A DNA stretch of 64,000 nucleotides from Polytrichum commune (taxonomy: Eukaryota > Streptophyta > Polytrichopsida > Polytrichales > Polytrichaceae). Shown here piece after piece: positions 6,281 through 64,000 of this stretch. Location of the stretch: the NCBI GenBank assembly GCA_950295325.1, contig OX485808.1:40323180-40387179 (forward strand), in the 5' to 3' direction. Made by a program: the position numbers and the translations under genes. How positions within the stretch are numbered: position 1 is the first letter of the stretch; each line of letters opens with the position of its first letter. The notes beneath the pieces were generated by a model that made no database searches, was not told the DNA's origin, and was given only the letters and a program-made list of their open reading frames with translations.

Positions 6281-6290
6281 ATATCAACTC

Positions 6291-22887: not shown

Positions 22888-22909
22888 CTCCCGGCGGACG
22901 CACCAATTA
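22888..22909 (-). other. Presumed primer-binding site of the Ty3/gypsy element
   Basis: On the minus strand the bases after the 5' LTR read TAATTGGTGCGTCCGCCGGG, the expected place for a tRNA primer site beginning TGG. The matching tRNA was not identified. The opposite internal edge next to the 3' LTR reads TAATTGGCGACCATCGGGG on the plus strand, an odd near-mirror of this site. Confidence 0.4.
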
Positions 22910-24831: not shown

Positions 24832-25104
24832 GCCTCGGATCCGAGGCCTCTTTTATGTGTTCCAAAACAAGTGTACGGATGAGGCACTTTGGTTTGTTTT
24901 GAGTATGTAAACTAGTTTGTGAATGAGGCCTCGGATCCGAGGCCTTTTTTATGTGTTCCAAAACAAGTGTACGGAAGGGGCACTTTGGTTGGTTCTGAGT
25001 ATGTAAACTAGTTTGTGTGTGAGGCCTCGGATCCGAGGCCTCTCGGCCGAGGCCACTTGAGGTTTTTTGATTCAAAGTTTAACTTGTATGAATGAGGCAC
25101 TTTG
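24832..25104. repeat. Continuation of the E1 intron with class-3 palindromes
   Basis: Carries the right part of the palindrome split by the LTR element (24832-24850), then sites at 24925-24946 and 25021-25042, the latter overlapping a second palindrome GGCCTCTCGGCCGAGGCC. It ends exactly where the E2 terminus starts. Confidence 0.8.
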
Positions 25105-27339: not shown

Positions 27340-27436
27340 ACTCCTCGGGGAGGATCGGTGGGGAGCCGCGACGCTATGCTCCGAACCCTGCGGCGACGAG
27401 CGAGAGAAGGCGGCGAGGACTATGTTATGCTATGTC

Positions 27437-40950: not shown

Positions 40951-43874
40951 CGCCGCAATCATATTCCAATGTGAAATCTGATAGATGAAGCAAACATATA
41001 CAAATAAACTCATTTCTATGATAATGCCAATTGTGCACCGAGACGCAATGAAAAATTGGGAGCCATCAACTATGCTGATCAAACCCGGGCCTATAGTATA
41101 GTTGCAGTCGTGATGAAAGGTTTTTTGTTTGATTAATGGATTCCAACATAATTTCCTTGGCAACCCCAATTATGAAGTTCACTCAAATATTCAAAACAGG
41201 GAGCATGTCTTCAAATTATCATATATTAATATTTGTCACATTTTGAATTGAGAAGAGCCGTGAATTGCGAAGAATCAACAACTCTAATCTAAATATTGTG
41301 GACATTGGACGTTAGAATATACGATCATCGTCCATGCAAAGGCCTATCTTGTATTAATATTGGTCATAACATTGTGGTGGGAGGATCAAGCAAGTGGGGT
41401 GAATTAACAACTATGATATGATCCCACTAACTTGCAACAATAATGGCCCGGATTTTGCGATGGCAAGAATCAACGGCTTTGATCGGGCTATGATGTAACT
41501 AATGGGGGGAATGTTTAGTGAATCTCCCACTCAATCAACCCCACTTCAAGTAGTCATCACATGGACACACCTAGTGACACATAGCTTCACCCATTGTGGT
41601 ACACCTCCCTTGGGCATGTACAGTTAGTACCAGCCTTGCCAATCCCTCACTCATTGGAAAGACTCCTCCTTAGCTCCACGTAGATTTCCATCCCTCATCC
41701 ATCCGCCATGCAAGCATTGAAGTGGATGATTTAAGTTGCCAACCGGGCAACCCAAACACCACCTCATCGTCCTTCACCTCATCGATGTGACGCCGGCTGG
41801 ACATTGTGGAGGCCACGGCATCCCCCCAAGTACCGGAGGAGTACACCATTTAATTGTAGTTTGTACGCCCAAATATTAGAGAAAAGCCTTTTTCTCGACC
41901 AAACTCGTGGGCACCTTTTGAGTCCATTCCTCCTCTAATGTATGTAGCACAACATGTTGTAAGAACGGATAATGATACTAAAATTTTATGACAATGCAAA
42001 CCAAATGCATTATATATAGAAAGAAAGCTTCACACTACAAACAGGGGTTTAAGTAAAATTAGAGTAAGTCCAAGTACATAATTATAACATAATGAATTTT
42101 ATCGTAAAATCTTCTAATAGAGTTGTATGGTGGGATTCTACAATAGAAGATGCAAAGTTCATCATGTTAAGATTATATTAGTTGTTATTATTACATTTTA
42201 TTACTTATTATTTAATTGAATTTAATGGATCATTTACCGACATGTTTTATTAATGATAACATTCAAGTTTATAGTGAGGATTCACATGATATCTCCCATA
42301 AGATCTACGTTTATCAAAAGTGGATTGACAGATCTGCCCATTGGATGGAGGCACCCCAAAAGTCTAGATTTTTAGAATATGTCTAAATATGCTTAAAAAT
42401 GAGTTTACATAGCTCCCTCATTTATTAATTCTTTTCTTCTTCTGCTAGATCCAGCTCTCGTTCTAAACGCATGAAATTTGTACGGATAGTAGAATTCCAA
42501 CTCATAGATTGCAAGATAAGCTAGGGACCTGATTGAAATAATTGACATTACCAATAACAATAAAGCTTATGATACTGGCACTACTAGAATCTAATGGATT
42601 TAATGTCATATTCGTTTGTCAACTTTGTGACATTCTTAGTTTTCACTAAGAGAAAATGTCATATTTTTTTCACATTATTGTGCTCAATAAGTTGACATTA
42701 ACACAGTCCAAACACATTAGTGTGGGATTCAAAAAGAGTTGAACTTGGGTCAACTCTTCACTCACCACAAGGCTCACCCACCAAACCAAACTTGGTTTTT
42801 AAATCTTTATCCTTCAAATGTGCGCTTGTAGGACCAGTACGAGGTATGTGGGTGTTATTCGGTTACTTTTCAAAATGGGACCCCAAAACTTGATTGGTGT
42901 GTGGTACACCGATCAAGCATCAAAGAATAGACACCATAAAGGCACATGTTTAAAAGAGATTACACTATGTCTTCAAAGTTAATTAACTACTTCACAATCA
43001 AGAGTACATAAATCATATGTTTGCGAGAAGACCTATGTATTCAGTTGAGGAAACAACAAACATACACTTTCAATAAGCATAGCTAAATAGGGGAGGTCCG
43101 ATGTTCAATCCGATCATCTTTGTTGAGGATTCATCATAGATCCACAACTGCAACACAAAGTTGATCACGTAAATCTGATCAATAGAAAAGACTCGGGAGC
43201 ACAAGCTGAAAAACGAGCCACTTAACATCCGCTTACGTTGGAAACCTTTCTGGATACATCAAATGCACCTCCCGCGAAGACTGTTTGAAGAAGGCCCCAA
43301 ATCCAAACTTGCTCAAAACATGCTCGCACATCCACTATAAGTATAGATCATGCTCAAGATGCCATGTGGTCCTGACAATTCGAGGACGAGGATGTACATG
43401 TAAAGTTCATTTCATCATACAATGTTGAGTTTCACACTCCGCGATATACATCTTGTAGAAAAACTTGCAGCACAGACATGAATCCACGGATCCCTCCACC
43501 ATGATCGACCACGATGCCACCATGTATGTTGGTACCCTAAAGTGCGAGGATCCATGAAGTAGCTGCCGACATGTTGGCATGATTTCTTGAGACGGACGAT
43601 AACGAGGACGTGGAAGCAGTGTCCGGGGAGATGTTGGGCATAATCGATCGAGATCCTAGTGTTTCCAAGTCCAACCCGTTACATGTTGACACCTTTCAGC
43701 GTTTCTTCGTTATTTTGAGATAGAGTTCAGAAATTCCTCTGAAATGGTCGGTAATTTTTTTCCAGTCTTGAACTTGAACCGGTTATTTTCAAAAGTCAAC
43801 CGGTTCATCTGTAACTAGCTAGTAGCGGTCGGTTGTCCCCGTACATTGCGTGGAAGGCCGCAGGATATCAACTC

Positions 43875-43881
43875 TATATAA
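43875..43881 (+). promoter_or_regulatory. TATA box of the second secreted-protein gene
   Basis: TATATAA, identical in sequence and spacing to the box at 6291. Confidence 0.55.
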
Positions 43882-43989
43882 CAAGCGTTGCGACCTCAGA
43901 GTTCATCATCCGCTCTCCAAGTTTCCACCGCAGCTTTAAGTCCTTTTGAGCTGCACTTCCCCTCCCAATTCGGTCCACCACTTGATCAA

Positions 43990-44388
43990 ATGGCTTCCAA
44001 CGCAAAGTTCGCTCTCGTGTTCATGCTCCTGTTGGCCACTGTCATGGCCGCATGTGCCTGCACAAATTGCCCCAAGTATGTGCCTTGCAAGAACGAGTAT
44101 TGTGCGCCTATCACAGTGAACGGCATAGTGATCGATGCGAATGTCACAATCGATGTCCTTGTCGATGTTACTGGGGTAATCGAATTGAAAGTGACGAACC
44201 TGTTGGGGGAGGTTGTCACAGGAACTTACACTTGCCCAGATGACGTGACCGCGCTCGTGTTCGTTCAGGTCGGCTTGGGTATCGCGGTGAAGGTGCTCGC
44301 TGCTGTGACTGCGTCATTGGTAGGCACGGTCCTCGCAATCCTTGACATCACCCTTGAGCTCTGCGCCCTCGTCACCATTAATTTATAA
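43990..44388 (+). CDS. Small secreted cysteine-containing hydrophobic protein, copy 2
   Basis: 132 residues, identical to the product of 6406-6804: signal peptide to about residue 21, cysteine cluster at 22-38, C82, C125 and a hydrophobic C-terminal third. Promoter and downstream sequence are duplicated with it, so both copies should be expressed alike. Two intact copies in an otherwise decayed region may give a dosage effect, but they may also be one gene seen on two haplotypes. Confidence 0.75.
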   Translation: MASNAKFALVFMLLLATVMAACACTNCPKYVPCKNEYCAPITVNGIVIDANVTIDVLVDVTGVIELKVTNLLGEVVTGTYTCPDDVTALVFVQVGLGIAVKVLAAVTASLVGTVLAILDITLELCALVTINL

Positions 44389-46768
44389 AGCTCGACTTCC
44401 CTGAGCAACTCTTGAGGTACCAACTACGAATGATATTGCATTGAGGCTCCGGCTGTGGAGTTCCTTTCAGAATGATCAACTTTTCCCTGACTTCCAGTGA
44501 CAATCTCATAGCTCAAAATTGGATGTTAAATGTTACGAGTTATAGTTTGAATGTTCTCTCAGCATGTCAATCACATCCAACTGGTATATAGTCTGTTTTG
44601 CATTCATGGGACATGTTGGAGTTTAAACTGAGTCATGGAACGCAATTCATGAGGTCGTGCCCAGTGTAGCTAATCGGTATTGGTATCATGGTATTCAAGC
44701 AATATTGATGATTGTCCGTGGAATTTTTTGTTGTGTTTTTATGTGGTATTTTACAGATGTCACGACTTGGGCTCGAATGGCAGGGAGCCTCGGATGACTT
44801 CTCATTCACACGAGTGGTTGAGAATGCCCTACAAAGAGCCGAAGAATGTGTCCCCATGCGGCCAATGATCTACGCCTACTTATATATAGTTCCTGTTTTG
44901 CAACACCTTGAAATCCATAAGTTTTTGTGTTACAATTCCAACACAATAGATGGAATCCTACAATTCGACGAATTTGCGGATCCACACTTGTGATGGAATT
45001 GGATACTATGTGACAAGCAGAGTTGGTAGAGGCTTGTGCAGCAACATGTTGCAAAAGTGGTCACGCATGTCATATCTTTTTAATGTTCCCTTCAATCTCA
45101 TGTTTAACAATGTGAGACTATTGAAATATTGAATGATAAACATGCGTTGAAGTTTTTGCATACCAATGGCCTAAATGTCATGAAGATGAGTTGTTCAAGT
45201 TTTGCAGCTCGATGGATACAATAATTGTCCATTCTCTTTGTGCTCACTCACGAGCGTTGTGAACCTGCACTCAAACTAATTTGTATAGGGAGACATTGAT
45301 GTAATGGTAGAAATGTAGTGCACAATCATGTTGATTTTCCTATTGAATGATTGTCTTTAATTTGGTTTGTTGGTCAAAAGTATTCATTATTTGAAACTTG
45401 GAAATAGCACTTTCTTTTACCTATTCTGGATAGTATCACCACCTCATATGTCTACAAATAGATATTGAATATTACAATTATATGGTTAAGCTCACTTTTC
45501 ATGGTTCCATGATTATTGGGGTGCTTCACAAAAACACACATCATTGATCACATTCTTACTAAATCCACATCACATTGTATAAAGTATATTAATTTTACTA
45601 CATACGCTCAGTTAGGGCTTATCAGTGTCTGAGTGAATTTTTTCATTCAGGAGGTAAAAATACAATGAGCTATTCTTTAGCCTAACAATATTTCTAACCA
45701 AGTTGACTTTTAGTATTGGTATCAACAACCCTGAGCTGGTTGGGCCAAGAGCTTGCAATGCAGAGACAATCATAATGATTTGGCCCTCAACCTACATGGG
45801 GCTTTGTTTTACGAAGACCCCTTCATCAATGATGGTTGAGTTTACCAAGAGGCCACAAAGCCTGAGTTTATACACTCAAAACATTTAAAAACATGATTGT
45901 GAAAAATTGTGAATCCTAATGTCTTGAGATTACCATCATTTATTAGTCTTTAGTTATATATATGAATTTAAACTCATGATCAATTCTTCGAGTGAAGATT
46001 TTTGTAATTTTTTCATGGTATGTATAACAAACCAATCACTCATCCAAGTGGACAACATCGTTTCCATATCCCTTGTGTTTTTTGTATCCACATGCAAAGC
46101 ACTTCATCCATAACCTATGATTTGTATCCATGTGACCCAAGCACTTATACCACATGAACATCTTGAGTAGGTCAATGTCTCGGTCGTATCTAAACTCATC
46201 GCATACCGTAAAGGGCTCTCTATCTCACCTTTGTATGTGCATGAATACAGTTTCCACGTGGATGCAAGTGGGTCTTAGCAAATCTAAGCTTGACACGTGG
46301 CAAAATTTGAGGGGAACATAATTCATTTATGTCGGAATAGAGAGCCCTCTACGGTAGTCTCCTCTTGCCAATCTTGTGGTCCCTATGTCTTAGCACATTA
46401 GGGGAGGAATGCACTCAAAAGGTGCCCACGAGTTTGGTCCCAAAAAAAGATTTTCTCTAATATTTTGTCTTCAAAACTCAAATGAAAATGAGGTTCGGCT
46501 CAAAGGTACTAGAAACCGGAACCACTGAACTATTGACACATTAGGGTGTGGACTTGTCATGGTGTAGTCCTTTAGTACTTGTGATGTTGCCGTGACCTCC
46601 ACTATGTATTTCCGGAGTCAAATCAACAAGGTCGAGTACGCTAAGAACGACTCCATTGGCTTGGACCCATGGTCTAAAACCATGTTGCACCTAATGTGCC
46701 ATGTGAGCTCATGGGTACGCCCTCGTACTACGGGGCTTGGCATATTAAGAATCTTATTTTTTGGTTAT
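44389..46768. other. Gene-poor stretch, copy 2
   Basis: Counterpart of 6805-9184; no supported gene or RNA. Confidence 0.4.
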
Positions 46769-47291
46769 AACACTATATTCGGTAATTGGAGACTTTTTGT
46801 TGATTATGAGACTATATAAGGATGCACATTTCAAAATTGGACCAGTAATGACGACTAAAAATCCCATATGTATAATGGTATGCTACTATTATTATACATA
46901 AAGGCATGGAAGTGAACAAAAATGTGAGGCATACATGAAAATAGTTGCGTATGAAATGACAACTCGTTATGAATGGAAGGGAAGGTGCGAAGAATGAATG
47001 GAAGTTGAATGAATTAATTGGGATTGAAATACAATTATAATGGAAATACCATCAATGTCTTGAGTAACTTGGAATAGCATACTAGAAAGTAAGCACTTAA
47101 ATATGTTCTACACCTAAGCATTTAGGGAGTCCGTCCCACTAGTACGCTTCTAGTCACACTAGTCCGACCCACTATTTTTTTTTGCGGCTAAGTCCTTTTT
47201 TTTGGCGGCCTCCATGGCTCTAAAAATCTCAGGCCCACGACTGTATCCTTGTGTGTTGCCTGGACAGGAATATGTGTCGTTCTTGCATGTT
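46769..47291. mobile_element. Remnant of E1 in copy 2, cut by E3
   Basis: Holds the E1 left terminus and the 3' end of X1, then is cut after GCATGTT by the E3 terminus. E3 therefore inserted into the cargo gene of a related element. Confidence 0.6.
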
Positions 47292-47674
47292 AACACTATA
47301 TTCGTTAAATTGAGACTTTTTGGGCATTTTGAGACATTCACATAAATAAGAACAAGGATAAATGGAACACATATTGGAGAAAGTTGTAAGATGCGAACAC
47401 TTTGTGTCGGGTATTTAGAACAAGAACCCCATTAATAACTCATATTTGGGATTGTTTAGGATGAGCAATCCAAACCTTAGGCCAAATTGAAGGGGAAATC
47501 TTAAAACATTCATATTATCGCACACAAAATATGAGATCTTGTATGAATATGTTTTAGGTAGGGCACTCCAAACCCTTAGACCATATTGAAGGGGAACTAT
47601 GTGAACCAATATAATATAACATACAAAATATTCCAAACTCATATTTGTGATGGTTTAGTTAGGGCAATCCAAAC
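47292..47674 (+). repeat. Left terminus and subterminal repeats of E3
   Basis: The terminus AACACTATATTCG... occupies about 51 bases. Three subterminal units follow, with degenerate palindromes at 47454-47475, 47551-47573 and 47653-47674, each near a TTGAAGGGGAA(A/C)T module, collinear with E2. Confidence 0.8.
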
Positions 47675-48101: not shown

Positions 48102-49075
48102 TGTCGCGCACCTCTCCATGAGGAGTGCCCGAAACACCATGGGCACAAGGGGGACCCCGGAGTGACACCCGGGACTTGTGGCGCCGTTGGTGAGAGGGCC
48201 CAAGTGATCCTAGTGTGGGTGAGGGCCCCGGGCGTTGGGAACGCCTCCCACCCACGGAGACTAGGATGCACAAGGGTAAGGCCATAAGCTATGCGTAGCT
48301 CATGACGTGGTGATTCTAGAATGCTCAAGAACACCTCAATCGGAGGTGTGAGCTAGGAGTTATGGCCATTTGAGTGGGGTGCTGTCCCGGGACAGCGCCC
48401 TGGTACAGCAGTGCCTGGGAGGGATTCCCGGGACTGCCAAGGTTCAAACAGGCATAACTTCCTCAAGACTTGCTCGAATGGAGCAAGTGAGGAGTCCATC
48501 GGCATCTACGTGAAGCGTAGATGAGGATGGAGTGGTTGGTTGTTATGATCAGACATCATACAAGGAAGTTATGATGGTCTGAAGCTGCTGGGGGGTTCTA
48601 GGCCCAGCAGCTAAAGGAAAATGTCCACTTGGCCCCAACTCTTGGTAGGGAGACAAGAGGTTGGTTGACGGTGGGGTAGGGGCCCCGCGTGAAGTCCTAG
48701 AGGCTTATATGGGTGAGGTGGTGTGGCCTCACCCACCCGAGGCCGAAAGGCAAGGCCTCCATGGGCATTGGCCCAATGTGAGGCCATAGTTGCCTAGTAT
48801 GGTTCGGGTTGTTGTAGTGTTGCTCCGGCAATGCGATGATCAACATAAGATGGGACTTCCATGGATGGAAGTCCACATCGAAGAAATGGGTTACCGATTA
48901 AAGGGTGAGTCCCAAAAGCAAAGTAGGAGGGTTGGTTCCCTCCTATGAACTATAAGGTCCGGGGTAGGAGGAGCTAACCATTAGCATGGCGGAATGCGAA
49001 TGGTTAGCGCTCGTAACCTTTGCTAAAATTGAAAATTGGCAAGATTGTCAAAGGGGCTTAGCAAGGGTTGCGACA
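48102..49075 (+). repeat. 5' LTR of the chromovirus (974 bp)
   Basis: Starts TGTCGCGCACC and ends GGGTTGCGACA. It contains local inverted repeats such as TGTCCCGGGACA near 48383 and GCTGCTGG...CCAGCAGC near 48585-48612. Confidence 0.9.
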
Positions 49076-49077
49076 CG

Positions 49078-49089
49078 TGGTATCAGAGC
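49078..49089 (+). other. Primer-binding site for initiator tRNA-Met
   Basis: TGGTATCAGAGC two bases after the 5' LTR is the complement of the 3' end of plant initiator tRNA-Met, the usual primer for many plant LTR elements. Confidence 0.9.
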
Positions 49090-49722
49090 AGGGTTCCAAA
49101 TTTTGAGCTCGCACTTTGAGGGAAACATGGCTATCAAAAAAATGCGGGTTGTGATGGTGAGCCCGTGGTTTCCAAAAGGTTGTGAGGCTTAAATTGGAAC
49201 AAGGATCATGTGCAAGTGGAGTTTGACCATACCATTGGTTCTAATGACAATGGTGGGCACTAAGGTGGATTCGGTAAGGAAAATGAAGGAGTGCTTTGAA
49301 AAGGGCTCCCACAAACCTCCAAAAGTATTTGGGGCCTAGAATACCGAATGCACCTAAAACCTTGGAGGGTATTAATTTTGGATTGAAATTCCAATTTGAA
49401 ATGCTTAAAAGGTGGTGATGTTGGAATTGGTGCAAATGAGGCACCCGGGGCCTCTTAAGGCCTATGTGCGCTATTCAAACGCACAAGTGAAGGATACACC
49501 TAAAATGGACGACCTTGTGAGACATGCATCGTTTTAGGTGGGAATTCAAAAGCGGGTGGTGAATTTCATGTCCGAGTCCCCAAAGCTTCTTGAGGACGTA
49601 TCGGGAATCTTTAAGATTTGAAGAACATTGAAGTCGATGGTCCTAAAAAGAAGTTCGACGGCGTACCACCATGAAGTGGGTTTAGCCGAAAAAGGTCTCA
49701 AGGAAATGGGCGTAAGTAGTGT

Positions 49723-49996
49723 GGCCGTTATACCAAGGCAAATCATGCTCGTTCCACGGACGCAATGTGGGAAGGTGGCTTTGTGGTACCAAGCCAAATC
49801 ATATTTGTGCCGTATGCGGAATGTTAGAAGTTGGTTTTATGTTACTAATCCATATAATGTTTGGGCCGCGGACGGAATGTTACAATGTGAATTGGTGGTA
49901 CCAAGCTAGAACATATTTGTGCCGCGGACGGGATGTTAAAAGTTGGCTTTGCGGACCAAGCCAAAACATATTGTTGCCGTGGACCGAATGTTAGAC
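49723..49996 (+). repeat. Internal tandem repeat of the chromovirus (about 65-bp unit)
   Basis: About four to five diverged units containing ACCAAGCCAAA(A/T)CATATT and GCCG(C/T)GGACGGAATGTTA. It lies where gag should be; no gag domain is recognisable. Confidence 0.7.
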
Positions 49997-50238
49997 TATG
50001 GCTTTGTGGCCAAGGCTAATAGCCTTAAGCCAAGGCCAAGTCTTTTATACCTTGAGGCGCAAATAATCGGAGATATGTCTCATGAGTTGACAAAGAGGCA
50101 ATGGACTCTTTCATGAGCCCAAAGCTCATAAGGGGGTTGGGGCTTGTCGACGCATAGAGCGGGCAAGCCCACCAAGGTGCGGTTTGCAAAGGGCGAACCG
50201 CATGAAGCAAAGGAAGCCGCGATGCATGTAACCTTTCA

Positions 50239-53040
50239 ATGTGGGACATTGAATTTTGTCAAAATTTCACACCATGTGAAATTAATAAGGTGCATGTCAT
50301 TGTAAAGGTCACCTTCTTTGAAACTCACATGATAGATGTGAGGTGCAAGCCGGTGAGCTTGCGGTGCATTATGATGTGTCATAATGGCAAAGAATTGAAG
50401 TTCAAATTGACAAGGACTCCTATGGTAGGAGGACCCAAGTTGAATTTGGTCTTATTGGACCAAATGAAAAATAGAAAACATAATGGTCGTGGTTCAATTA
50501 GAGCAACTCCAAGGAATGTATGGGGAGGCTAGGAAAGATGGGCCTCCTCCAAACCACATTGGTGGGATGTTGGTGAGATACAAGGATGTATTCACCAATG
50601 TGTTGCCCAAAAAGTTACCGCCAAGAAGTGAAAACTAACTTTGCTCAACGAGAGATTAAGTTCTTGAGGTATGTGGTGACAAAAGAAGTTGGTGGACGAA
50701 CATGAAGAATGTTAAGGCAATCCAAAAGGAGAATTGGCCCTTCATTCAAAAGGGCTTAGGTCATTTGTTGGCCTAGCCAATTAGTACCACAACTTCATTC
50801 GAGAGTTTTCTAAGGTTCCTAGGACCTTATTCAACTTATTGAGGAAAATGGCTATCCCAAGAATGGGATGAGCCTTGTCACCAAGCCTTTGGGGGGCTCA
50901 AAAACAAGTTCTCTTCGCCGCCTGTGCTTAAGTTCGCGGATTTTAACAAACCTTTTGAGGTGCATATGGGGCGAGTGACTTTGCCATTGGCGGATGGTTA
51001 ACGTAAGATGGATGGCCATTGCATATGAGAGCGTTAAGCTTGATGGTTATCCGACCTTATCCGACTTGTGGAAGAATTGGCTATCCCAAGAGTGGGAGGA
51101 GCCTTGCCACCAAGTCTTTGGGGAGCTTGAGAGCAAGTTCTCTTAGACGCCCGTGCTCAAGTTCGCGGAGCTTGACAAAACTTTTGAGGTGCATACGGGG
51201 GTGAATGACTTTGCCAATGGCGGATTGTTGATTTAAGATAGATGGCCATTGCATATGGGAGCATGAAGCTCGATGGTTGTCAAAGAAGACAACCAACTCA
51301 TGCCAAACAACTTCTTTGCCGTAGTGCATTACTTGAAGATGTGGCGACACTATTTGGGGTCGCACAAAGCAAAGGTCTATATGGACAATGTGTCCTAAAA
51401 GAATTATGACATTCAAGCGCAAGTGAGCGCCAAGTCATTGCGGTGGCATGATAGTTTGGCGCTTATGAACGTGGATTTGATCCACAAACCGGACCGTGGA
51501 AATGTGGTGCCGGATGCGCGAAGTAGACCGGAAGAGTTCCAAGCAATGAGAACCATCCAAACCTTGTGGCTAATGTGTGCCGGCGAAGGAAACTTGTAAT
51601 GCAAGATACGGGAGGGGTAAATTAACTACCCCAAAGCACAAAAGCTTTTAGGTGAGCTTCGCAAGAGCAAGGTGCTCAAAGAGGTTAAGTTGGTGGACGG
51701 ATTGTTCAAGTGCAAACAAAGTCGGGTATTTGTGCCACAAGGCAAGTTGAGGCTATCGGTTTTGAAGGAAAAATGTTATAGCCCTATTGCCGGCCATAGA
51801 GGAGAAAGGAAAAAAAATACCGCCATAGAATGGTGTCATGGAGGTACCATTGGCGGTGCGTAAAGGAAGATATAGACCACTTTGTGAAGGCGTGAATAAA
51901 GTGCCAAGTGAACCGAGCCTCTTACCAAAAGCAAGGCGGTTTCTTGCAACCGTTGCCTATCCCGTCGGCGTCATGGCATAGTATGTGCATGGACTTGATC
52001 ACAAGTTTGCCGGAGTCACATGGGTATGATGCCATCTTGTTGATGGTAGAGCGGTTTGCCAAGTTGGCACACATGGTGCCGATTGTGGGAACCGCCATCG
52101 CGTTGGAGACCGCATAGCCTTTTCTCAAAGGATGGTTGAGGCACCACGGGTTGCCAAGAGTGATTGTGTGGGATCAAGATCCAAAGTTCACAAGTGCATT
52201 TTCAATGCATTTCTCTAAGGAGGTCGGAATGAAACTAAGGTTTAGCACGGCCTTGCATTCCCAAATGGATGAGAAAACGGAGCGTGTGAATGGAGTCTTG
52301 AAGCAATACTTGAGGAACTTGGTGGGGGCGGACCAAGGAGATTGGGCGGACTATGTGGGTCGAGCGGAGTGTAATTGCAATGTAGCCACGCACTTGGCTA
52401 CCAAGGGGTGGTCTTTGGTGGTGGCTTATGGAGTGGATGCGCTCCAACCTATTAACCTAGCTCTCGAGGGGGCACATTCAACACTAGAGTTCAACCAAGA
52501 TGGTGAGGACTTGGCCAAGGATGGTAAACAAGTCTTGGAGATGACCAAGTTGTTGGTGGAGAAAGCCCGAAGGTGCAACGGAGTGCAAATCAATGCCGGA
52601 AGACGCGAAGTGGAGTATGAGGTGGGCCAATAAGGTGTTGTTGAATGTGGACAACTTCACCTTGCCCAAAGGCCTTACTCCAAAAGTTCATGTCCAAAAT
52701 TGGAACTTCGTTTTCCATTGTGGAACAAGTGTTCAAGGACATGTATAAGTTGGAATTACCGCCGGAGATCAAAGTGCATCCGACATTTCATGTCTCATTA
52801 CGAAAGTTATTTTAGGACGACACCTTGTGGCCCGATCACAAGCAAGTGATTAGGCCACGTCCCGACCTCGTGGAGGTCATTTGGAACATGAGGTAGGAGG
52901 GCATCCTCAAGTGTAGGAAGCCCAAGTGAAAATGAAAGAAAATGTACAAAGGAGTACTTGGTGAAATGGTGAGGATACCATGAGAAACAAACCGTTTGGG
53001 TGGCGGCAAGAGACATGGTGAACACTGGTTCTTTGGCTTG
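50239..53040 (+). pseudogene. Decayed pol region of the chromovirus
   Basis: Fragments in order: an RNase H start (FNKPFEVH near 50945), present twice because a 206-bp stretch is duplicated (50845-51051 and 51073-51280); an integrase zinc region (CYSPIAGHRG near 51776); an integrase core with MDLITSLPESHGYD (about 51990), VWDQDPKFTSAF (52169) and TERVNG (52278); and a chromodomain-like EYLVKW.GYHEKQTVW near 52950 with a TGA in place of one residue. Stops and frameshifts separate the pieces. The chromodomain remnant places it among the chromoviruses. Confidence 0.75.
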
Positions 53041-53741
53041 AGGGAATAAAGTCCAAACTTTAGTGGTGCAAAGAGAAAAGTATGAGATGAGGTCCTAGTC
53101 TTGTACTTGTGCTTGGTTAATGGAAGAGGGGGAATAGATATGCCAAACTAGGTTGGGTAAGCCGAGTAATTGGGGGCCATGGCTTGGAGGGGCCTTGGAT
53201 AAAACCAAGAAACTTCTTAGTTGTGGGTTTGTCCGGGCGGGGACAAGGTGATGGCGCGTGCTCATAAAAGTGCTACCCGCGAGCTAACGAGAGTTGGCGC
53301 ATGGGAGTCATGAACCCATGTCTCGAAAGAGCAAAGTGGGAACCGAGTCGGGCGGGACTTGGCATCACCCCCGTGCGATCGAGGCGTGGCTTAACAATGG
53401 AAAGCCATCTCGGAGTTGCAACCGAGACAACTTAGTGGAAGCGTTGAGGTCTCGCCTAGATGTGTCACGTTAGGCTAGTGGAGCCTAACGGGGGAGGCCC
53501 CAAAGGAGGGGCAACCCAAGTGAGTCCCAAAGTAGGTGGGTCTAGTATAGGTTGGGTCCTTGGAGGAGTTCCAAGATCGCTAACGGACCACCTAGTAACG
53601 ACACCTTTGGGACTATGCCAAATTTGAAGATGCATTGTGGGGGTCGTGCCCTAAGGTAAACACAATGCCGCACCATAGAGGATGGCAACTTGAGAATTGG
53701 TGTGCCGACTACGAGTACAGTCGATGAGGGCATCGACTCCG

Positions 53742-53756
53742 TTTGGTGGGGGTGAG
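53742..53756 (+). other. Polypurine tract
   Basis: TTTGGTGGGGGTGAG directly before the 3' LTR, the usual plus-strand primer position. Confidence 0.7.
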
Positions 53757-54730
53757 TGTCGCGCACCTCTCCATGAGGAGTGCCCGAAACACCATGGGCA
53801 CAAGGGGGACCCCGGAGTGACACCCGGGACTTGTGGCGCCGTTGGTGAGAGGGCCCAAGTGATCCTAGTGTGGGTGAGGGCCCCGGGCGTTGGGAACGCC
53901 TCCCACCCACGGAGACTAGGATGCACAAGGGTAAGGCCATAAGCTATGCGTAGCTCATGACGTGGTGATTCTAGAATGCTCAAGAACACCTCAATCGGAG
54001 GTGTGAGCTAGGAGTTATGGCCATTTGAGTGGGGTGCTGTCCCGGGACAGCGCCCTGGTACAGCAGTGCCTGGGAGGGATTCCCGGGACTGCCAAGGTTC
54101 AAACAGGCATAACTTCCTCAAGACTTGCTCGAATGGAGCAAGTGAGGAGTCCATCGGCATCTACGTGAAGCGTAGATGAGGATGGAGTGGTTGGTTGTTA
54201 TGATCAGACATCATACAAGGAAGTTATGATGGTCTGAAGCTGCTGGGGGGTTCTAGGCCCAGCAGCTAAAGGAAAATGTCCACTTGGCCCCAACTCTTGG
54301 TAGGGAGACAAGAGGTTGGTTGACGGTGGGGTAGGGGCCCCGCGTGAAGTCCTAGAGGCTTATATGGGTGAGGTGGTGTGGCCTCACCCACCCGAGGCCG
54401 AAAGGCAAGGCCTCCATGGGCATTGGCCCAATGTGAGGCCATAGTTGCCTAGTATGGTTCGGGTTGTTGTAGTGTTGCTCCGGCAATGCGATGATCAACA
54501 TAAGATGGGACTTCCATGGATGGAAGTCCACATCGAAGAAATGGGTTACCGATTAAAGGGTGAGTCCCAAAAGCAAAGTAGGAGGGTTGGTTCCCTCCTA
54601 TGAACTATAAGGTCCGGGGTAGGAGGAGCTAACCATTAGCATGGCGGAATGCGAATGGTTAGCGCTCGTAACCTTTGCTAAAATTGAAAATTGGCAAGAT
54701 TGTCAAAGGGGCTTAGCAAGGGTTGCGACA
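53757..54730 (+). repeat. 3' LTR of the chromovirus (974 bp)
   Basis: No difference from the 5' LTR was seen by eye over its full length. Confidence 0.9.
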
Positions 54731-55420: not shown

Positions 55421-56170
55421 TCAAATGAGCTTGTTAAATTTCGCGTGAGAGAACAACTCTCTGTACAAATGGTCTCGTGGATCCAAGTATCTCTCGCCTA
55501 TTGGATTATTCCTAACAAAATTGTTTACAGGTAGTCCGCTTCCCCTGAGCGCCTGGAGGTATTTACTAAGGTCTAACAAAAATCGGTCCCGGACCTTCTC
55601 GACCGTCCACGTAGGGCAAACTATTAAGTTGGCCGTCGGGTTCAACATGTTCTTTGCGGCGCTGTCGTCCACCATGAGCGTGTTCTCCCGGGTGGGACGG
55701 ACGTCGTAGGGGACACCTATCAATGACGGACGCTGGTCCCAAAAAATGGGCTTCAAGACCTTGAGGTATTGGGGGGAAGCGGGGTTGTTTGGTTTTTTGA
55801 CGACTTTGCCGTCCGGTGTGTACAATATTCTACAGGCTTCCTGTGCTAGGACCATGCAGGGGGGCTCGATGCCCTTGAAGATGAACTCCACGACTGCATT
55901 GGTGTTCTCGGCCTTCATGGAGCTCCACACGACCACCCACCATCGTTGTTGGGCGATCTGGAGGAAGGTCCGAAGCCACGGGCGGAGGTGAACTAGCTTG
56001 CTCTTTATGAACGTGGGCGGCCCGTCGTAATTCGCGTCCTCGGGCTTGCAAAAGGGCACCGTGGGGGTCCTCGGGCAATGAACGCATTGGACGAGGACCC
56101 CGTTGAGGTCTAACACCAGGAACCGGGTCTTAGGCGGCAAAGGTGGAACGGGTAAAATGGGGGGGACCAT
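55421..56170 (-). CDS. HAD3: intact FCP1/NIF-like HAD phosphatase
   Basis: 249 residues, collinear with HAD2 and ending KFNKLI. Motif I is FLVLDLNGVL (D21, N23), motif II-like VVVWSSM, motif III-like LMVDDSAAKN; the CPTWTVEKVRDRFLLDL segment is shared exactly in type with HAD2. The second Asp of DxD is Asn as in all three copies, so the substitution is ancestral to this family rather than random decay. The reading frame is open in E2 and E3 despite differences between them, which suggests selection on the protein. It lies 541 bp downstream of the ParB/methyltransferase-like gene on the same strand. Substrate unknown. Confidence 0.75.
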   Translation of the reverse strand: MVPPILPVPPLPPKTRFLVLDLNGVLVQCVHCPRTPTVPFCKPEDANYDGPPTFIKSKLVHLRPWLRTFLQIAQQRWWVVVWSSMKAENTNAVVEFIFKGIEPPCMVLAQEACRILYTPDGKVVKKPNNPASPQYLKVLKPIFWDQRPSLIGVPYDVRPTRENTLMVDDSAAKNMLNPTANLIVCPTWTVEKVRDRFLLDLSKYLQALRGSGLPVNNFVRNNPIGERYLDPRDHLYRELFSHAKFNKLI

Positions 56171-56678
56171 CGCGCTACCTTCCTCGCTTCTTGGAGAGGC
56201 CCGGCGGGGAGCCGCGACGCTATGCTCCGATCCCTGTGGAGACGAGCGACATAAGGCGGGGGAAGACTATGTCATGCTATGTCCACTTAAAGTGAATACA
56301 ATATTTTCTGTGAAAAATACAAGAACCACTATGCATAGGCGGCCATACAAATGCAAGAGGGGGCAAGAGGAAAAAATATACATTTGAACACGAAAACAAA
56401 CATAAGGGCACAAAATAATAATTTTATTGTTTGCAATGCTCTATGTACAAAATGCCTAGGGGTGCGAAGCCGCGTTGAACGATCCGTTCAAACTATCCTA
56501 ATTCAACATCTACAAAATTGTGTGCACGCCTCCAAGTTCGAGTAAAATCGTGGGACGGGCGACGTTAGTGATCGTCGGGGGGGGGGGCTGAAGGGATGCG
56601 AGAGCGGATGGACGGGGTGGGGGCAGTTCCTCCTAGCTAGGGGGGACACGACCACGGCAACAAGACAATAGACCAGGA

Positions 56679-59600
56679 GTTTGGATCGAGCGACCCAAAC
56701 TGAGGAGGTCTCAGTGTATTACCTCTCCCTGGTCATGCCTGGACGCCATGGAAGCCTCCACCGCCTCCGCTTGTCGTTCTCTCTTGCCACCGCCTTCTCC
56801 GACGATGTCAGCACCCCTCTCCTGCAAGCGCTCAGTGTTAGGACCTTCTCCTAACCCAACCTCCGCATGTGCATCATGCATAGGTTCATCGATTGGGATA
56901 GGAGTAGAGGTATCACCAGGCCCTCGAGGACCTTCAACATCAGGCATGGGTGTGTCTCTTTCAGACCCATGCTGGTCCATTGAAGACTGAGCGGTAACGG
57001 AGTTTGGGTCGGCCGACCCAAACTCTCGTGCATCATGAGATTGGCCTTGTTGCACTGTAAGGGGGGGCGGGTTTGGGTCGGACGACCCAAACATGTGGGG
57101 GTCGTCCTGCTGATGGGGCGGGGGGATCACCAGGGGCGGCCGAAGTGGTGGGGGGGTCACAGGTCTAGAAGACCCGGGAAGGCGCCATATATTGGGGTCA
57201 TCCGCTTGTTGAACCGGCGGATACGGACGGACGTGGGGGGGAACCATGTGCTGAAAGCTGAAGGAGGATTGCGGCACGGGCTGCGGAGGAATGTTCTGGG
57301 GAGGGAAGCCGGGGGGCAAGTGTGGAAATGAGCCCGGGGGAGCCACCACCAAACCCTGCGCCCACATGCCTTGAATCACTTGCGTGATCAAGTCCGCACT
57401 AGTTGGAGGTTGCGCCAATACCCGCAGTCGCTCTTGCTCCAATAAGAGAGCCCTTAGCTCTGCCACTTCGTTCCGCACTGAGGGTTCTTCAGCAGCGGCC
57501 TTTTGCAAGCGGACGCGTTGTTCTTCGTCCCTTAACATCTTCTCGTTGGCTTCTTGCACGGTGAGGACTTCCGGCTTCACCTTCACCATCCCTGCGAAGG
57601 CACCTGGAGAGGGAGGGTCTGACCTGAGCCGTTTCGCGAGCTCCATGTCGTCCTCGTCTTCGCTGCTAATGGCAATTGTCTCCTCGATGGCATAGTCGCC
57701 ATAGAGTTTCTTGCCTTTTAGTTTCCTCCTCTCCCTGAACGCGGCAGTCGCATCCCTGGAGTACATGTCGCGGGCATCATCAACCGTCAGGACGGGCACC
57801 AACTTACTTTGTGGAGTTGCTACCCGCATTGCCTTCTTTCGTTGAGGGGCTTCAGATTCCTGAGTGAAGCCTGTTCCCCCTTCTTCGACCTCGCCCTCCA
57901 CTTTAGCCTCTTCTTCCTCCTCTTCCACCTCCTCATCCTCCTCCTCCTCCTCCCCCTCCTCGTCACGCGGTCGCCGAGAGGATGTGCCTGGATGCACTTG
58001 GACCAGAGGCTCTGGTACAGCAACTGGAACCTTTATGGCCAATTCTTCAGGGTTGACACGCCTCGCCTTATCCAGCGGGCTCTCACCCCCTTCAACAGTC
58101 TCCTCGGCGTAGCTCCCAGGGATCCAGTCTAGTATATCCATCTTCTTTGCCAATGATTTTTGGGCCTTGTAGAATTGGATGTCATTAAGGTCTACATAGC
58201 TGTACACGTTCAGCCCCAGCATCTGCAGAAATCCCATCAGATGTTATTATATGGCATAACATGTGATTCCACCGAAAAGGGGAAGTACATACAAGACCTA
58301 ATATCAATTGCAAAGGTTATAGTTTGGGTCGAGCGACCCAAACTAGCATCAGTGTTAGTTTGGGTCGAGCGACCCAAACTAGCATCGGTGTTAGTTTGGG
58401 TCGCTCGACCCAAACTATGAAAACAATTATGGTAATGAGCTTACCATGCCAGCGAAGACGGGCTTGGTGCCGCCGAAGACGTTGAATATACAGTCCCCTC
58501 TTCTCGTCAAGGCCCTCATTATTCGGAGATAGAATTCCATCCGCAACTCGTCCGAATGGTATATGGCATATTTTGCCTCGTCGTAGAGGGACTTACTTGC
58601 GCCCAGGCCTTCTGGAACTTGGAATAGTTTCTGCATCCGGGTTATGGGGTGGTTCTCCACCTTCAGCAAGGTTGCTTTGAACACAAAGTACAAGCACAAC
58701 AAATTCATGACTTTGGTTTTCTTGTCCTTTAGTGTCGTGTACACCCCCTCTGCCGGTGCAGCAATGTAGTGAGACTTAGACACCGCATACTCAGGCTGCA
58801 ATTTCCTCACAATTTCATACACCTGCTCTGCTCTCCTATCCTCTACTATCCACAGCCACATATCGACCTCCCTAAGCTTAGGGCTTGCATACTCCACGAA
58901 CTTCGACATGAAGGGCTCGTAGAAGGGTGTACCCATTGTGCCCTCAAACGTACTCCCAGGAATGCTCCGGAAGTCTATTATACCAAAGGGGAACCGGTCC
59001 GCTGCTCTTACTCGTATTTCTTTCCTGGAATCAAGGCCGGGCCATCCCTGGATTTTAATAGGGTCAAAAGCGACAAGGTTGAAATGCGCATCCCCCTCAA
59101 AACTTACAATCTTCTTCTCCTTTATAAAGTTTGAGAAGGCACGCGTCGAGTGTTCTGGAAGAGCCAGGTTCTTCCCACCCTTCACCAGTTTTGACTTTAG
59201 GAAGTCTTCTCCTGCCTCCCTGATCAGAGCTGCCATGGATGCACTGGTGAAGTTGTATTCAGCCTTGAACGCTCTCCAGTTCACCTCGTTCACCTCGTCA
59301 TCGACAAAAATGTTCTTTTCCGGGATTAGCTTCTGCAGCTCCTGGACGATCGTTGTTTTCTTCTTCCTATTCTCCGCCCATTCCTTCATTGTGTAGCATG
59401 AAGGAACAAAGGATTTCGGCTTGGTGAAGACTATTTTGGGGTACACCCAAAATCTCTTAGGGGTCGGGTTGTTGTGCAAGATGTGCGTTGCCGCCTTCCC
59501 CATTTCCGCCTCCGAAAGACCCTGCAGACTTCTAAAGAATTCTCTCATGAGAGGCTTCATCGCCTTGAATCGAGAGGACGAGTTGAAGAGGTTGCATGTG

Positions 59601-62087
59601 TCAGGATCCATGAGATCCCCTGTCTCGTGTTTCTCAAACACTGTCTTCCACTTCTGCCAAACCATGTCGGATGATGTAATCAAGTAGATCTCTCCTCTTA
59701 GCTCATTGTACTTCTTTTGCTTGTGACTTGAATTGTCAATTGAGGAGAACTTGTTTATCATTTGATATTTGAAAAGCTGCACAAGAGCATAGAATGCGTG
59801 TTAATTCTCAATATGTTGTTTCCAAACAAAGAAGAAAAATGATGAACAACAAACTGCGTAGACAAACACAAACTAAAACACAAGGTTTGGGTCGAGCGAC
59901 CCAAACTGTATGAAGAAACACAAGGTTTGGGTCGAGCGACCCAAATTGTATGAAGAAACGCAAAGTTTGGGTCGAGCGACCCAAACTCTGTTTGAGAAAC
60001 AATGCTCACCTCCCACTTTGGATTCTTGTCTTTTGCATTCTCCCTTTCCTTGGGAGGCCGGCCGTAGAACTCCCACACATCCCGCGATGCCATGATGTTC
60101 CTAATCCAAGAAGCTTGATATGCCCGCTTCTTGTTATTCATGTTGAAATAGCGGGAGATATCGCTCAGCCGGGTTTCGTCGTCCGACCACACGACCAATG
60201 CCTTCCATACCTTCAATTTTTCCTTTAGACCATTAGGATCATTCCACTCCGTCATCAGTTGAAGTTTCTTTGAAGCTTCAACACTGTGCTGACCGTCAAT
60301 CAGCCAAAAATCGCCTTTCTCTATAGAAGGCCACATATCCGGTGTAGGCATTCTTTTGTGTCCCTGAGGCATGACAACAATAGTCTGCCTATCATGTTTA
60401 AACTGGTCGCTCACCATCTGGGCGATTAACCAATCAACATACGCATCTTCCTTTGCCCGAACGCACTTCTCTGGTGGCGCTAGGTGGCATTGTGCGATGT
60501 TGACATCAAACTTGAATTCTCTGCCCATGAAAAAACAATGTAAACACTTGGTGTCGAAATTGTTGAGTATTTTCTGGATCTCCGATGGCTCCACTCCTTC
60601 CCCGGGCTTGGGCATACGTAGCTCCGGTGAAACAGGCTCATCTGTCATGGCAGATACTGACTCTCTCGGCCTCTTAGATGGTGTCGTCTGCCGGCTTTGT
60701 GATGGCGTCGGTGTTTCACTATCAGCAGGAGTTGCCGTAGGTGTTGTTCTCCTCGAGTCAGCTGGAACCGGTCGGGGCTTCCTCACTGTTTGAGGTCTTG
60801 ACGACCCTGCGCCCTCTTCAGCAGTCGCCTTGCGCCTCACAGCTTGTTGAGATTTTGACTTGCTTTGCTGGGTCTTGTTTATTGCGTTGATTGCCTGCTT
60901 AAGTTTAGTGAACATGGTTGCAACCTTCGTGTTTGAAATGATCGCATCTATGAAGATTGTATCCGGTTTAACAATGTCTGGCTCAGCGCAGGATTCCTTC
61001 ACGTATACCGGATCGAATGGCTCGGCTTGCTCATGCATGAACATGTGCACATTTTCCAGAGAAGAGTTTTCCAGGATGACGTCAACGTGCTCTCCTAGAG
61101 CATGAACTGATGCCACCTCCCATCCCGTCAAAGCATCCCATGTGTGTTGCTCCTCCGTGCCAACCTTCAAAACAAGGAGGATTTTGAATTGAGCTGCCTT
61201 TACTACAAGAAAGGACCATGCAATTACAAGGTCTTCTTTTGCTACGTAGGATTGGTTTTTAGGAGTTTCGTGCTCCTGCCAGATCGCGTCTGGTGCCGGC
61301 TTGAACCATCGTTCTCCAGGTCTTTTCTTTGGGGGCATCTGCAAGTAGAAATACATATGTTAGTTTCGGTCGGGCGACCCAAACTCTTTCAAATCATATA
61401 GGCTTATGTCTGGGTTTAGTAACATTTATATATGGGGTTACTTTTCACAGGTTTGGGTCGAACGACCCAAACCTGTGCCTACAATGGCTAATGAATAATA
61501 TATTATTTGGCTACGAAAACCAATCTTTAAGTTCATGGATACAACAATCATCACGAGCTATTGTTCTAGTTGTGGGTCATTTCATTATTGCTTGGGTGTT
61601 TGAGTTGTTGTTTATAAGTGTAAGTATTGTTCGTAAGCAGTAAAAATTTACGCAGAGTTTGGGTCGTTCGACCCAAACTTTGTAGCGGTATGGAATGATC
61701 GGCTATGGCCTTAGATCATACCCAAGATGATGATTACCTAAATTATGAATTACCATTTCATGCGCTGTTTGGGTCGAACGACCCAAACTCTGCAGATGGA
61801 TTGGGTCGATAGGGTTAGATATTCACCCAATATGATGATTAAATTAATTATAAATGAACATTTGATGCGGAGTTTGGCTAAACCCTAGACCCAAACAATG
61901 CTTATGGTTTGGGTCGAGCGACCCAAACTCTGCAGATGGATTGGCGCCCACGACCCAGAGCATCTGCTAGTTTGGGTCGAACAACCCAAACCATCTTTAG
62001 AGTTTGGGTCGAACGACCCAAACCATCTTTAGAGTTTGGGTCGAACGATCCAAACCAGCTGGAGAGTTTGGGTCGCCCTACCCAAAC
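56679..62087. repeat. Palindrome class 1 of E3 (GTTTGGGTCG-NN-CGACCCAAAC), about 17 sites
   Basis: 22-bp sites start at 56679, 57002, 57071, 58322, 58358, 58394, 59885, 59925, 59965, 61363, 61451, 61657, 61767, 61907, 61970, 62002, 62034 and 62066. Most have perfect arms; a few carry one change. The two central bases vary (AG, GC, GA, CT, GG, AA, TT). Two lie in the last coding exon, three in each of the two coding-region introns, nine in the long upstream intron and one just past the stop codon. A half-degenerate site is at 63752. Confidence 0.95.
56711..61338 (-). CDS. ParB-like plus DNA-methyltransferase-like protein (3 exons, 1,390 residues)
   Basis: Coding exons 60010-61338 (443 codons), 58445-59776 (444) and 56711-58222 (503 plus stop); both introns are phase 0 with GTGAGC/GTAAGC donors and GTGCAG/CTGCAG acceptors. 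The ATG is the first base of its exon after CTTGCAG, so the 5' UTR is spliced. Residues about 275-400 resemble a ParB-type domain: a polar first half, then FWLIDGQHSVEASKKL (DGQH 348-351) and VWKALVVW. Residues about 650-910 resemble a methyltransferase of the IV-then-I order: IIDFRS (709-714) in the place of DPPY, then RGDCIFNVFGGTK (869-881) and YVDLN (about 896-900) in the place of DxFxGSGT and the ribose-binding acid. The key residues are altered, so catalysis is doubtful. Acidic, coiled-coil and proline-rich regions follow. Domain calls are by pattern only. Confidence 0.6.
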
Positions 62088-62266: not shown

Positions 62267-63200
62267 GCTTTGCAAACTACACAACAAGCTGCTGTTGGAA
62301 GCAGTTCTAACAAGCTAGTCTTGGAAGCTGATTCTAGAAAGGATTGGATATCAGAAAACTAAGAACACCTCACAAACATTCACTCTGAATTGAAGAAGCT
62401 TTCACAAACATTCACTCAGAATTAAACAATCCCTCACAAACATTCACTCAGAATTAAACAATACCTCACAAACATTCACTCTGAATGTAACAAGTGTTTA
62501 CAAACATGAACAAAGAAGCTATCTGAAGGCCACACATGCATCCTGATTTTCGAACAATCATTCTAATTCCGAAATCACTCTACACTCACACATGAATGTT
62601 TCTAAGACCAGGAGGAACTGACACAACCACTTTGAAACAACACTCACACTCCAAAACAACAAAGACGTTCTGAAATGGCTAAAATGTATAGACTTTAATA
62701 CAAAAACAAACCCTAAACTCATACTACACTCAGAACTCGGTCAATGCGCACTCAATGAACAACAAAATAGATCAAAAGAAGAGGAGGAGTGAAAGAGAGA
62801 ATGAGATAATGATGAAGAGGGAAGGAGAGAGGGAATGCGAGTTCGACAAGGAGAGAGAGAATGCAAGGGAGGAGGCGGCGCTTTCAAGAGCGGCGGCGCC
62901 TCCAGAAAGTATGAGGAACGTACAAAGGAGGAGGAGCTTGGAGCGGAGGAGAGAGAAGGAGAAAGTGCGGAGGGGAGAGTGAAAGGGGGAAGGTCACTCA
63001 AGGGCGGGACCCATTCGGGCCGGCGCCTTTCGTGTCCGTTCGGCTCATGGCCGCCACGTGTCACGGGGCGCTCCATGGCCCAAATGAATACACAATCTGA
63101 GCCATTGGAGAGCCCCAGGCCCATCGACGGTCGATAGACCTCGCAGGTGGGTATCCTTTAGCCACCTATCCCATACCATCCTTGAGGATACTAAAAAACC
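62267..63200 (-). promoter_or_regulatory. Presumed 5' UTR and promoter region of the ParB/methyltransferase gene
   Basis: Four imperfect repeats of TCACAAACATTCACTC(T/A)GAATT lie at 62371-62510. A long stretch at 62765-62960 is CT-rich in the sense of transcription, common near plant start sites. The next candidate TATA is on the minus strand at about 63202-63208 (CTATAAA). Overlapping open frames at 62741-63137 are low-complexity shadows. Confidence 0.35.
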
Positions 63201-64000
63201 TTTATAGCCTAAGGTTTTTAATTTAATGGTCCCCCGATGGATTTGCTAATATCAAATAATGAAACTGTATTGGTTTTGTAATTTTAGTAATCTACACATA
63301 TGCATGAATCGAGAATGATAGATACTAGACTAAGAGGAGTATTTAATAATTATATTGCAATCCTCGTAGGCAATTACATAATGGAATAATATAACTATGG
63401 TAACCATTTACACAATGAATGGTTTCGAGTTATATATTGTAATTATCTATGAAGGTTGTTGGTAAAGGACAATGCTATAGCCTACGATGGATCCGTTAAC
63501 ACATACCATTGAACTAAATCTAATTATACAAGTTTATGTAGTGTCATTCATTATAATATGGAATTATGCAATATTAAGTGTTGACAACTTAATATCATTG
63601 TTGTTTGCGAAAAGCAACAAAGATGTTGTTTGATTTATAGCATGATGGAACATTAACATACTTATTTACAAGTTTACATATTTATGAGATACAAATATAT
63701 TGAAGCGGGTGTTTTTGCTGAAGAACCCAATTAAGAACTCATATGAAGATGGTTTAGGTAGGACGACCCAAACATTAGACAATGTTGTTGTTGTTCATAT
63801 ATTTAGTTGAGACAAGATAAAGTCTACAAATATTGAATATAGTGATAGTAAATGAGAGAAGCACCATGTATACAAATATGAAGCTATCAAATACTAATAT
63901 GTGGAGTTCAACATTATATGAAGCCATTTAAGCAATCACTTTGTTGTTGGATGATCCCTCCACATATATTAAACAACATATCTTATTAGGAAATGAGGCA
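63201..64000. other. AT-rich stretch with a degenerate E-type right end
   Basis: At 63690-63775 the sequence resembles the E2/E3 subterminal block (GAAGCGGGTGTTT, AAGAACTCATAT, then GTTTAGGTAG, two bases, CGACCCAAAC). At 63780-63846 it resembles the E0 end (GTTGTT, CATATATT, GAGACAAGATAAAGTCT, GAATATAGTG). No gene is seen here. Confidence 0.4.

Follow-up and report, generated by a model that had tools for sequence, protein, structure and literature searches.

The 64,000-nucleotide stretch of the Polytrichum commune genome analysed here (contig OX485808.1, positions 40,323,180–40,387,179 of the forward strand; hereafter the window) contains a transposable element, designated B, that carries a NIF phosphatase-like gene and a large accessory gene, the latter surrounded by a cluster of palindromes (Table 1). 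The accessory gene was modelled on the minus strand with three predicted exons (61338–60010, 59776–58445 and 58222–56711) and GT-AG introns, giving a predicted product of 1,390 amino acids (aa). A pattern scan of the window located 18 copies of the word GTTTGGGTCG-NN-CGACCCAAAC (two 10-bp arms and a 2-bp centre) at 56679–62087, 12 of them perfect and six with one mismatch, in keeping with the eighteen 22-bp palindromes reported by the initial annotation; no match was obtained in 100 dinucleotide shuffles, and a chance origin was therefore rejected. With up to three mismatches permitted, 19 places were found in total, the extra one lying at 63752 with two mismatches. As the initial annotation had stated, the sites occupy the introns, the untranslated-region side and the coding sequence of one gene: nine lie upstream of the ATG, three in intron 1, three in intron 2, two in exon 3 and one past the stop codon, starting ten bases beyond it, while exons 1 and 2 (2,661 bp) hold none. 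Coding sequence makes up 77% of the stretch yet contains only 2 of the 18 sites, the other 16 being non-coding (P about 5e-9 with 18 independent sites, 6e-5 with 11 contexts and 0.003 with 8 contexts). Both coding sites translate as F-G-S-[SA]-D-P-N, in the same frame, inside a proline-rich tail. An acceptor-like TTGCAG stands directly before the ATG, and a 32-bp tandem array (CTCACAAACATTCACTCAGAATT type) without the palindrome is present upstream of the gene at 62361–62520.

The constancy of the arms was observed just as directly, with 6 of 360 positions deviating from the consensus over the 18 sites, while the centre was AG in seven sites, AA in five, and GC, GA, CT, GG, TT and CC in one each; these counts bear out the earlier description of near-perfect arms around at least seven central combinations, which now number eight. 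Merging both strands reduces the centres to five classes (AG, AA, GG, GC and GA, with their complements), so that the centre is not fully free. Because ten of the sites sit in three tandem arrays (36, 40 and about 32 bp), the 18 copies do not represent 18 independent events: keeping one site per array left 11 contexts, or about 10 given that the right flanks of 61767 and 61907 are alike at 17 of 20 bases. In the 11 contexts the information content (uncorrected for small sample) was 1.56–2.0 bits in the arm columns, 0.76 and 0.32 bits at the two centre positions and a near-random 0.06–0.51 bits in most of the flank columns. The bases directly outside the arms carried 0.68 and 0.90 bit, for which reason the site may be 24 bp rather than 22 bp long, and two columns further right carried 0.76 and 1.13. 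All six arm mismatches are single-sided, four breaking a pair and two leaving G-T, and it is the DNA letters of the arms that are kept, not pairing alone. Neutral decay of the arms, raised by the initial annotation, was checked within the window, where the flanks of the same sites differ and the arms do not; the youth of the element may contribute to this. Exact matches to the word numbered zero in IMG/VR and zero in GTDB prokaryote contigs.

A second palindrome was observed in a related but broken element, E, which shares with B the order terminal repeat, NIF gene and accessory gene as well as the minus-strand orientation of both genes. Here the word is TTTACGAACG-NN-CGTTCGTAAA, which has the same 10+2+10 design and lies in the last exon of the accessory gene of E and in the stretch downstream. 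The coding sites at 13949 and 14337 fall in different codon frames, suggesting that what is kept is the DNA word and not a peptide; a peptide-level repeat was rejected on this ground. The two coding sites of B, which share a frame, are not decisive alone. Arm mismatches amounted to 16 of 140 positions in E, measured against a consensus drawn from its own few sites, compared with 6 of 360 in B, a difference consistent with decay in a broken element, or simply with a younger B. The NIF proteins are identical at 94 of 216 positions between E and B, and at 209 of 278 between B and a further element, A. Smith-Waterman alignment of the E exon with the tail of the B protein scored 107, against best scores of 93, 100 and 97 in 300 block shuffles (blocks of 10, 20 and 40). 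Mainly on the strength of gene order, the accessory gene of E is likely a paralogue of that of B. Two further 10+2+10 palindromes were found in the intron of E, both in tandem repeats and with an invariant centre, and a long terminal repeat (LTR) retrotransposon (15352–24831, target-site duplication GCCTC) has inserted into one of these intron repeats (14783–15247 and 24829–25042).

A survey of the whole window counted 104 near-palindromes (10+2+10 with 8 of 10 pairs or better). When these were clustered by sequence, just three families reached four members or more, and all three lie in the loci of B and E: the B word with 19 (the 18 sites plus 63752), the E intron word with five and the E exon word with four; most of the smaller groups consist of copies within LTRs or within a duplication described below. 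Near-palindromes of 9 or 10 pairs numbered 34, whereas 20 first-order simulations averaged 2.35 and never exceeded 5.

The 28-bp terminal repeat of B is identical to the right end of an element C (2645–2672, minus strand) and to the left end of A (25105), and recurs with three mismatches at 9185 (E) and at 46769, the latter being a copy of 9185 in a duplicated stretch. Its start, AACACTATATTCG, occurs at 9185, 25105, 46769 and 47292 and reversed at 2672. None of the elements shows both of its ends within the window, and hence no target duplication was seen. A and B share stretches of 829 bp at 91.6% and 1,557 bp at 82.3% identity, and B looks young. The earlier statement that all sites lie inside one element holds for the left end, which is clear at 47292. 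At the right, the degenerate repeat at 63846 lacks the flank that a near-identical stretch would lead one to expect, and we therefore think that B probably runs beyond the window end. That stretch is a 7,035-bp direct repeat (2673–9707 and 40257–47291) with two differences; the right end of C adjoins its first copy and the left end of B its second, and each end is missing from the copy that the other adjoins. The most economical account has the stretch duplicated very recently and then receiving two insertions, although from one window a misassembly is also conceivable. Subterminal, asymmetric relatives of the palindrome were found in A and B, and one relative, four mismatches away, at the right end of C (2460); the site at 63752, with one half of the subterminal type and the other of the internal type, links the two kinds of site.

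Table 1. Features of elements A, B and E in the window (LTR, long terminal repeat; TSD, target-site duplication).
Feature	Position	Strand	Evidence or remarks
Element B
Left terminal inverted repeat, 28 bp, AACACTATATTCG...	47292–47319	+	0 in 100 shuffles
Three asymmetric subterminal palindrome relatives (GTTTAGGTAGGGCAATCCAAAC type)	47454–47674	+	47454, 47552, 47653
Nested LTR retrotransposon	48102–54730	.	977-bp repeat 100% identical (last 3 bases target-site sequence), TSD CGTAC
NIF (FCP1/SCP-like) phosphatase-like gene	55424–56266	-	PF03031, E 1.6e-15
Palindrome past stop codon	56679–56700	.	1 mismatch; pattern scan
Predicted exon 3 of accessory gene, incl. stop	56711–58222	-	splice model; coding palindromes 57002, 57071
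Predicted intron 2, 222 bp	58223–58444	-	splice model; palindromes 58322, 58358, 58394 (36-bp array)
Predicted exon 2, residues 444–887	58445–59776	-	splice model
Predicted intron 1, 233 bp	59777–60009	-	splice model; palindromes 59885, 59925, 59965 (40-bp array)
Predicted exon 1, residues 1–443	60010–61338	-	splice model
Nine palindromes upstream of ATG	61363–62087	.	61363, 61451, 61657, 61767, 61907, 61970, 62002, 62034, 62066
Hybrid site: left half subterminal type (GTTTAGGTAG), right half internal type (CGACCCAAAC)	63752–63773	+	
Degenerate terminal repeat, candidate right end	63819–63846	-	7/28 mismatches
Element E
Left terminal repeat	9185–9212	+	3 mismatches to 28-bp repeat
NIF-like gene	10688–13340	-	upper limit approximate; PF03031, E 7.6e-12 on 10688–11374
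Solo LTR splitting the NIF-like gene	11350–13208		TSD GATGT
Palindrome set TTTACGAACG-NN-CGTTCGTAAA	13450–14358	.	13498, 13534, 13581, 13891, 13949, 14337 (up to 3 mismatches), 13450 (4)
Last exon of accessory gene, incl. stop	13926–14648	-	acceptor TTTCAG (by eye)
Intron palindrome GAGGCCTCGG-AT-CCGAGGCCTC	14783–15247		14783, 14910, 15226; also 24925 (1 mismatch), 25021
Intron palindrome CCCACGGGCG-AA-CGCCCGTGGG	14783–15247		15054, 15124
Element A
Three asymmetric subterminal palindrome relatives (GTTTAGGTAGGGCAATCCAAAC type)			25268, 25357, 25457

Ten proteins of the window, two of them from B, were scanned for domains. No Tnp2 was found with Pfam among these ten, and the right part of B may lie outside the window. 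Beside the right end of C, a DUF7869 protein (PF25273, E 1.3e-41) is encoded at 627–2138 and is possibly the transposase of this element family; a literature search for DUF7869 yielded no paper naming it. Three elements carry three NIF phosphatase-like genes (55424–56266, 26578–27429 and 10688–13340), all reading DLNGVL. The textbook signature of NIF-type phosphatases is DxDx(T/V), and the encoded proteins are possibly inactive or of a plant-type subclass. A stops matching B at 27438, and an open reading frame beyond this point (29078–29887) ends in a Cys/His pattern that by eye resembles a SWIM zinc finger (no Pfam match). A protein-kinase-like gene is found at 32399–33892 (PF00069, E 6.2e-06, below the Pfam cut-off).

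By eye, residues 250–443 (DFWLIDGQHSVEASKKL) of the 1,390-aa protein resemble a ParB/Srx N-terminal domain, with a weakly ParB-like stretch around residue 348, and residues about 840–920 (TRRGDCIFNVFGG...LGLNVYSYVDLND) resemble a degenerate motif I of N4/N6 methyltransferases that spans the intron 2 junction. Searches against PHROG gave sub-significant matches to phrog_1033, a 'ParB-like partition protein' (E 0.042 and 0.012), and a match to phrog_6952, a 'DNA methyltransferase' (E 0.31); the best chance E among ten shuffled peptides was 0.053, so that the methyltransferase match falls within the shuffle noise whereas the ParB match narrowly clears it. When residues 640–887 were compared with phages by tblastn, nine records were returned at E 2 to 7, four of which (from two phages) were DNA methylases aligned at the expected motif I position, with E 7. 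Smith-Waterman comparison with a phage methylase scored 75, whereas 500 shuffles reached at most 51; the pair had been preselected by the search, and the score is hence no independent proof. The phage methylase had too few relatives for a profile to be built; residues 250–443 had no tblastn match in phages, and no relatives of residues 262–443 were found in viral contigs. Pfam searches with the full-length protein (E up to 1) returned only SPX (0.82) and no DUF1985, DUF287 or ParBc, and searches of protein pieces at E up to 10 returned neither VANC domains nor ParBc. The few matches that the domain searches listed, among them cystathionine gamma-lyase (0.026), fit no motif. No further copy of exons 1 and 2 was found elsewhere in the window by tblastn or phmmer. 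The catalytic motif of N4/N6 methyltransferases is (D/N/S)PP(Y/F/W) and the cytidine triphosphate (CTP)-binding motif of ParB is GxxRxxA; neither [DNS]PP[YFW] nor F.G.G nor G..R..A occurs anywhere in the 1,390-aa protein, which reads DGQHSVEA where the CTP-binding motif would sit. Because these motifs are absent, the usual methylation and CTP binding are doubtful even if the folds are right. Overall, the protein weakly resembles a ParB-like domain joined to a methyltransferase without catalytic motifs.

We consider it reasonably probable that the palindromes are predicted sites at which the element's own protein acts on its own element, with autoregulation and probably anti-silencing as the outcome and with word and protein changing together. 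A homodimer, either of the 1,390-aa accessory product itself or of a partner with which it works, would bind the palindromes; as the sites lie mostly in the non-coding parts of its own gene, the protein would act on its own element; once bound, it would regulate its own gene and probably prevent silencing of the element; and protein and word would change together, so that each subfamily would use a word of its own, with GTTTGGGTCG arms in B and TTTACGAACG arms in E. The initial annotation had proposed a dimeric DNA-binding protein, and the fixed arms, the variable centre, the clustering at one gene and the keeping of letters all fit this proposal. From the sequence we infer binding by the accessory protein, its dimerisation and an effect through autoregulation or anti-silencing, together with the paralogy of the E and B accessory genes. 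A more elaborate scheme, which we regard as decidedly unlikely, holds that in a eukaryotic transposon lineage a bacterial-type ParB and methyltransferase protein has turned into a catalytically dead, sequence-specific loader that docks on private palindromes distributed over its own gene, spreads along the element and shields it from silencing, the subfamilies switching their 10+2+10 word to escape cross-talk.

Several results weigh against an action of the accessory protein on its own element. Pfam, NCBIfam and PDB sequence searches yielded no confident DNA-binding domain in the protein, and two single-sequence AlphaFold models were too poor to use (predicted local distance difference test scores of 37 and 35). 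At E up to 10, phmmer reported no pairing of the E exon with exon 3 of B. The subterminal sites of A and B differ at 7 of 66 positions and are thus no better kept than the 91.6% overall, and part of the arm constancy in B may reflect the young look of the element. The ratio of observed to expected CpG shows no sign of escape from methylation (0.73 in the gene and 0.70 in the window; 0.57 upstream of the ATG with the sites masked), and the two intron palindromes of E are not explained by the model.

An unlikely alternative is that the palindromes are mainly transposition sites, bound at the ends and in the interior by a TnpA-like protein that assembles the transposition complex, the internal copies being secondary. 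It would account for the diverged relatives that are subterminal in A and B (three each) and present at the right end of C (2460), as well as for the site at 63752, half subterminal and half internal in type, and it recalls the soybean CACTA elements Tgmt*, whose subterminal repeats are described in PMC2613891 as forming palindromes and varying by subfamily. However, the dense, near-perfect sites are internal, the outermost lying about 9.4 kb from the left end when the nested LTR element is counted, and track the structure of the gene, whereas the subterminal sites are asymmetric and no better kept than their surroundings. A functionless spread, either of a selfish short palindromic repeat or by tandem duplication and gene conversion alone, would be in line with the 10 of 18 sites in tandem arrays, with the common flank of 61767 and 61907 and with the little decay expected in an element that looks young; we judge it quite improbable, given that about 10 unrelated flank contexts have only the arms in common, that exons 1 and 2 lack sites and that the design recurs in a second element with another word and with coding sites in two frames.

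Binding by a host transcription factor instead of the element's protein would suit the nine sites upstream of the ATG, and the binding of the sites by the element's protein is itself a prediction. Sites are also present in introns, in coding sequence and past the stop, however, and the exchange of one word for another between related elements implies a partner that changed with it, which leaves a host factor very improbable. The least probable reading is that the sites act in the transcript as RNA hairpins (an 8-bp stem with a CGNNCG loop) regulating splicing or giving rise to small RNAs: 15 of the 18 sites are intronic or precede the ATG, where the acceptor-like TTGCAG may mark a 5' intron, but none of the six arm mismatches is compensated and stem letters are kept where pairing would permit others, and on this ground hairpins were rejected as the principal explanation.

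If the palindromes do serve the element's own protein, B would represent a second, independent case of a transposon protein marking its own element through private, fast-switching DNA words, and one built on palindromes and on a protein without VANC domains. Two related elements that lie within 50 kb and differ in their word offer a ready test of how protein and site change together, and such protein/site pairs could become tools for steering silencing at chosen loci. The palindrome design, the switch of word between neighbouring related elements and the potentially bacterial-type protein are the new features; no palindromic VANC-like system was found in a limited look at the literature (titles and the beginnings of abstracts).

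Among known systems, bacterial ParB/parS resembles B in having a palindrome cluster near the gene of a protein that is possibly ParB-like, and differs in that the 1,390-aa protein has no ParBc match and no G..R..A and that the word has no exact match in GTDB prokaryote contigs. For the parallel drawn by the initial annotation, the sole ParB signal is the sub-significant PHROG match, with no ParBc match from Pfam and no CTP-binding motif; no ParA was found among the ten proteins scanned with Pfam, no search having been aimed at it. Closer to transposons, an accessory protein of Ectocarpus Sola1-1 is described in a passage of PMC12477816 as combining a ParB-like domain and a methyltransferase, with green and red algal cases cited. 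The likeness to these algal proteins is that of a large accessory protein of a DNA transposon, with the same domain order weakly read by eye in the moss protein; the latter differs in having no catalytic [DNS]PP[YFW], and the passage describes no binding-site arrays. For the VANC proteins of VANDAL elements, passages of PMC5735166 report targets in the form of motif arrays, often tandem, in introns, upstream and elsewhere in the non-coding sequence of the same element, different motifs for related proteins, and VANC domains corresponding to DUF1985/DUF287. B shares with them an element-encoded protein and arrays in its own non-coding parts (16 of 18 sites outside coding sequence, 10 of 18 in tandem), and E and B, with their likely paralogous accessory genes, carry different motifs as related VANDAL elements do. 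VANC motifs are short in that account (YAGTATTAY; AGTTGTCC/AC), whereas the B sites are 22-bp palindromes, and neither DUF1985 nor DUF287 was matched by the 1,390-aa protein (Pfam, E up to 1). Expression of VANC proteins strips DNA methylation from copies that bear the motif. The VANC comparison made by the initial annotation has thus gained from the second element of the same family, which has its own, different palindrome at the equivalent gene, in the pattern reported for VANC targets, while membership of the VANC family is not borne out, VANC domains being absent. TnpA of maize En/Spm and the TNPA-like proteins of CACTA elements such as soybean Tgmt* offer the likeness of an element-encoded DNA-binding regulator with palindrome-forming repeats and subfamily-specific words, and TNPA regulates its own element both positively and negatively according to passages of PMC2613891. 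The sites there are subterminal, whereas the main cluster of B is internal, around the gene. CACTA elements have termini beginning with CACTA, a 3-bp target duplication and a Tnp2 transposase; the terminal repeat here begins AACACTA, not CACTA, and the empty site of B lacks the AA. Because VANC domains are absent and CACTA features are not established, we assign the B system to neither family and regard it as one that, by analogy, appears to work like VANC or TnpA.

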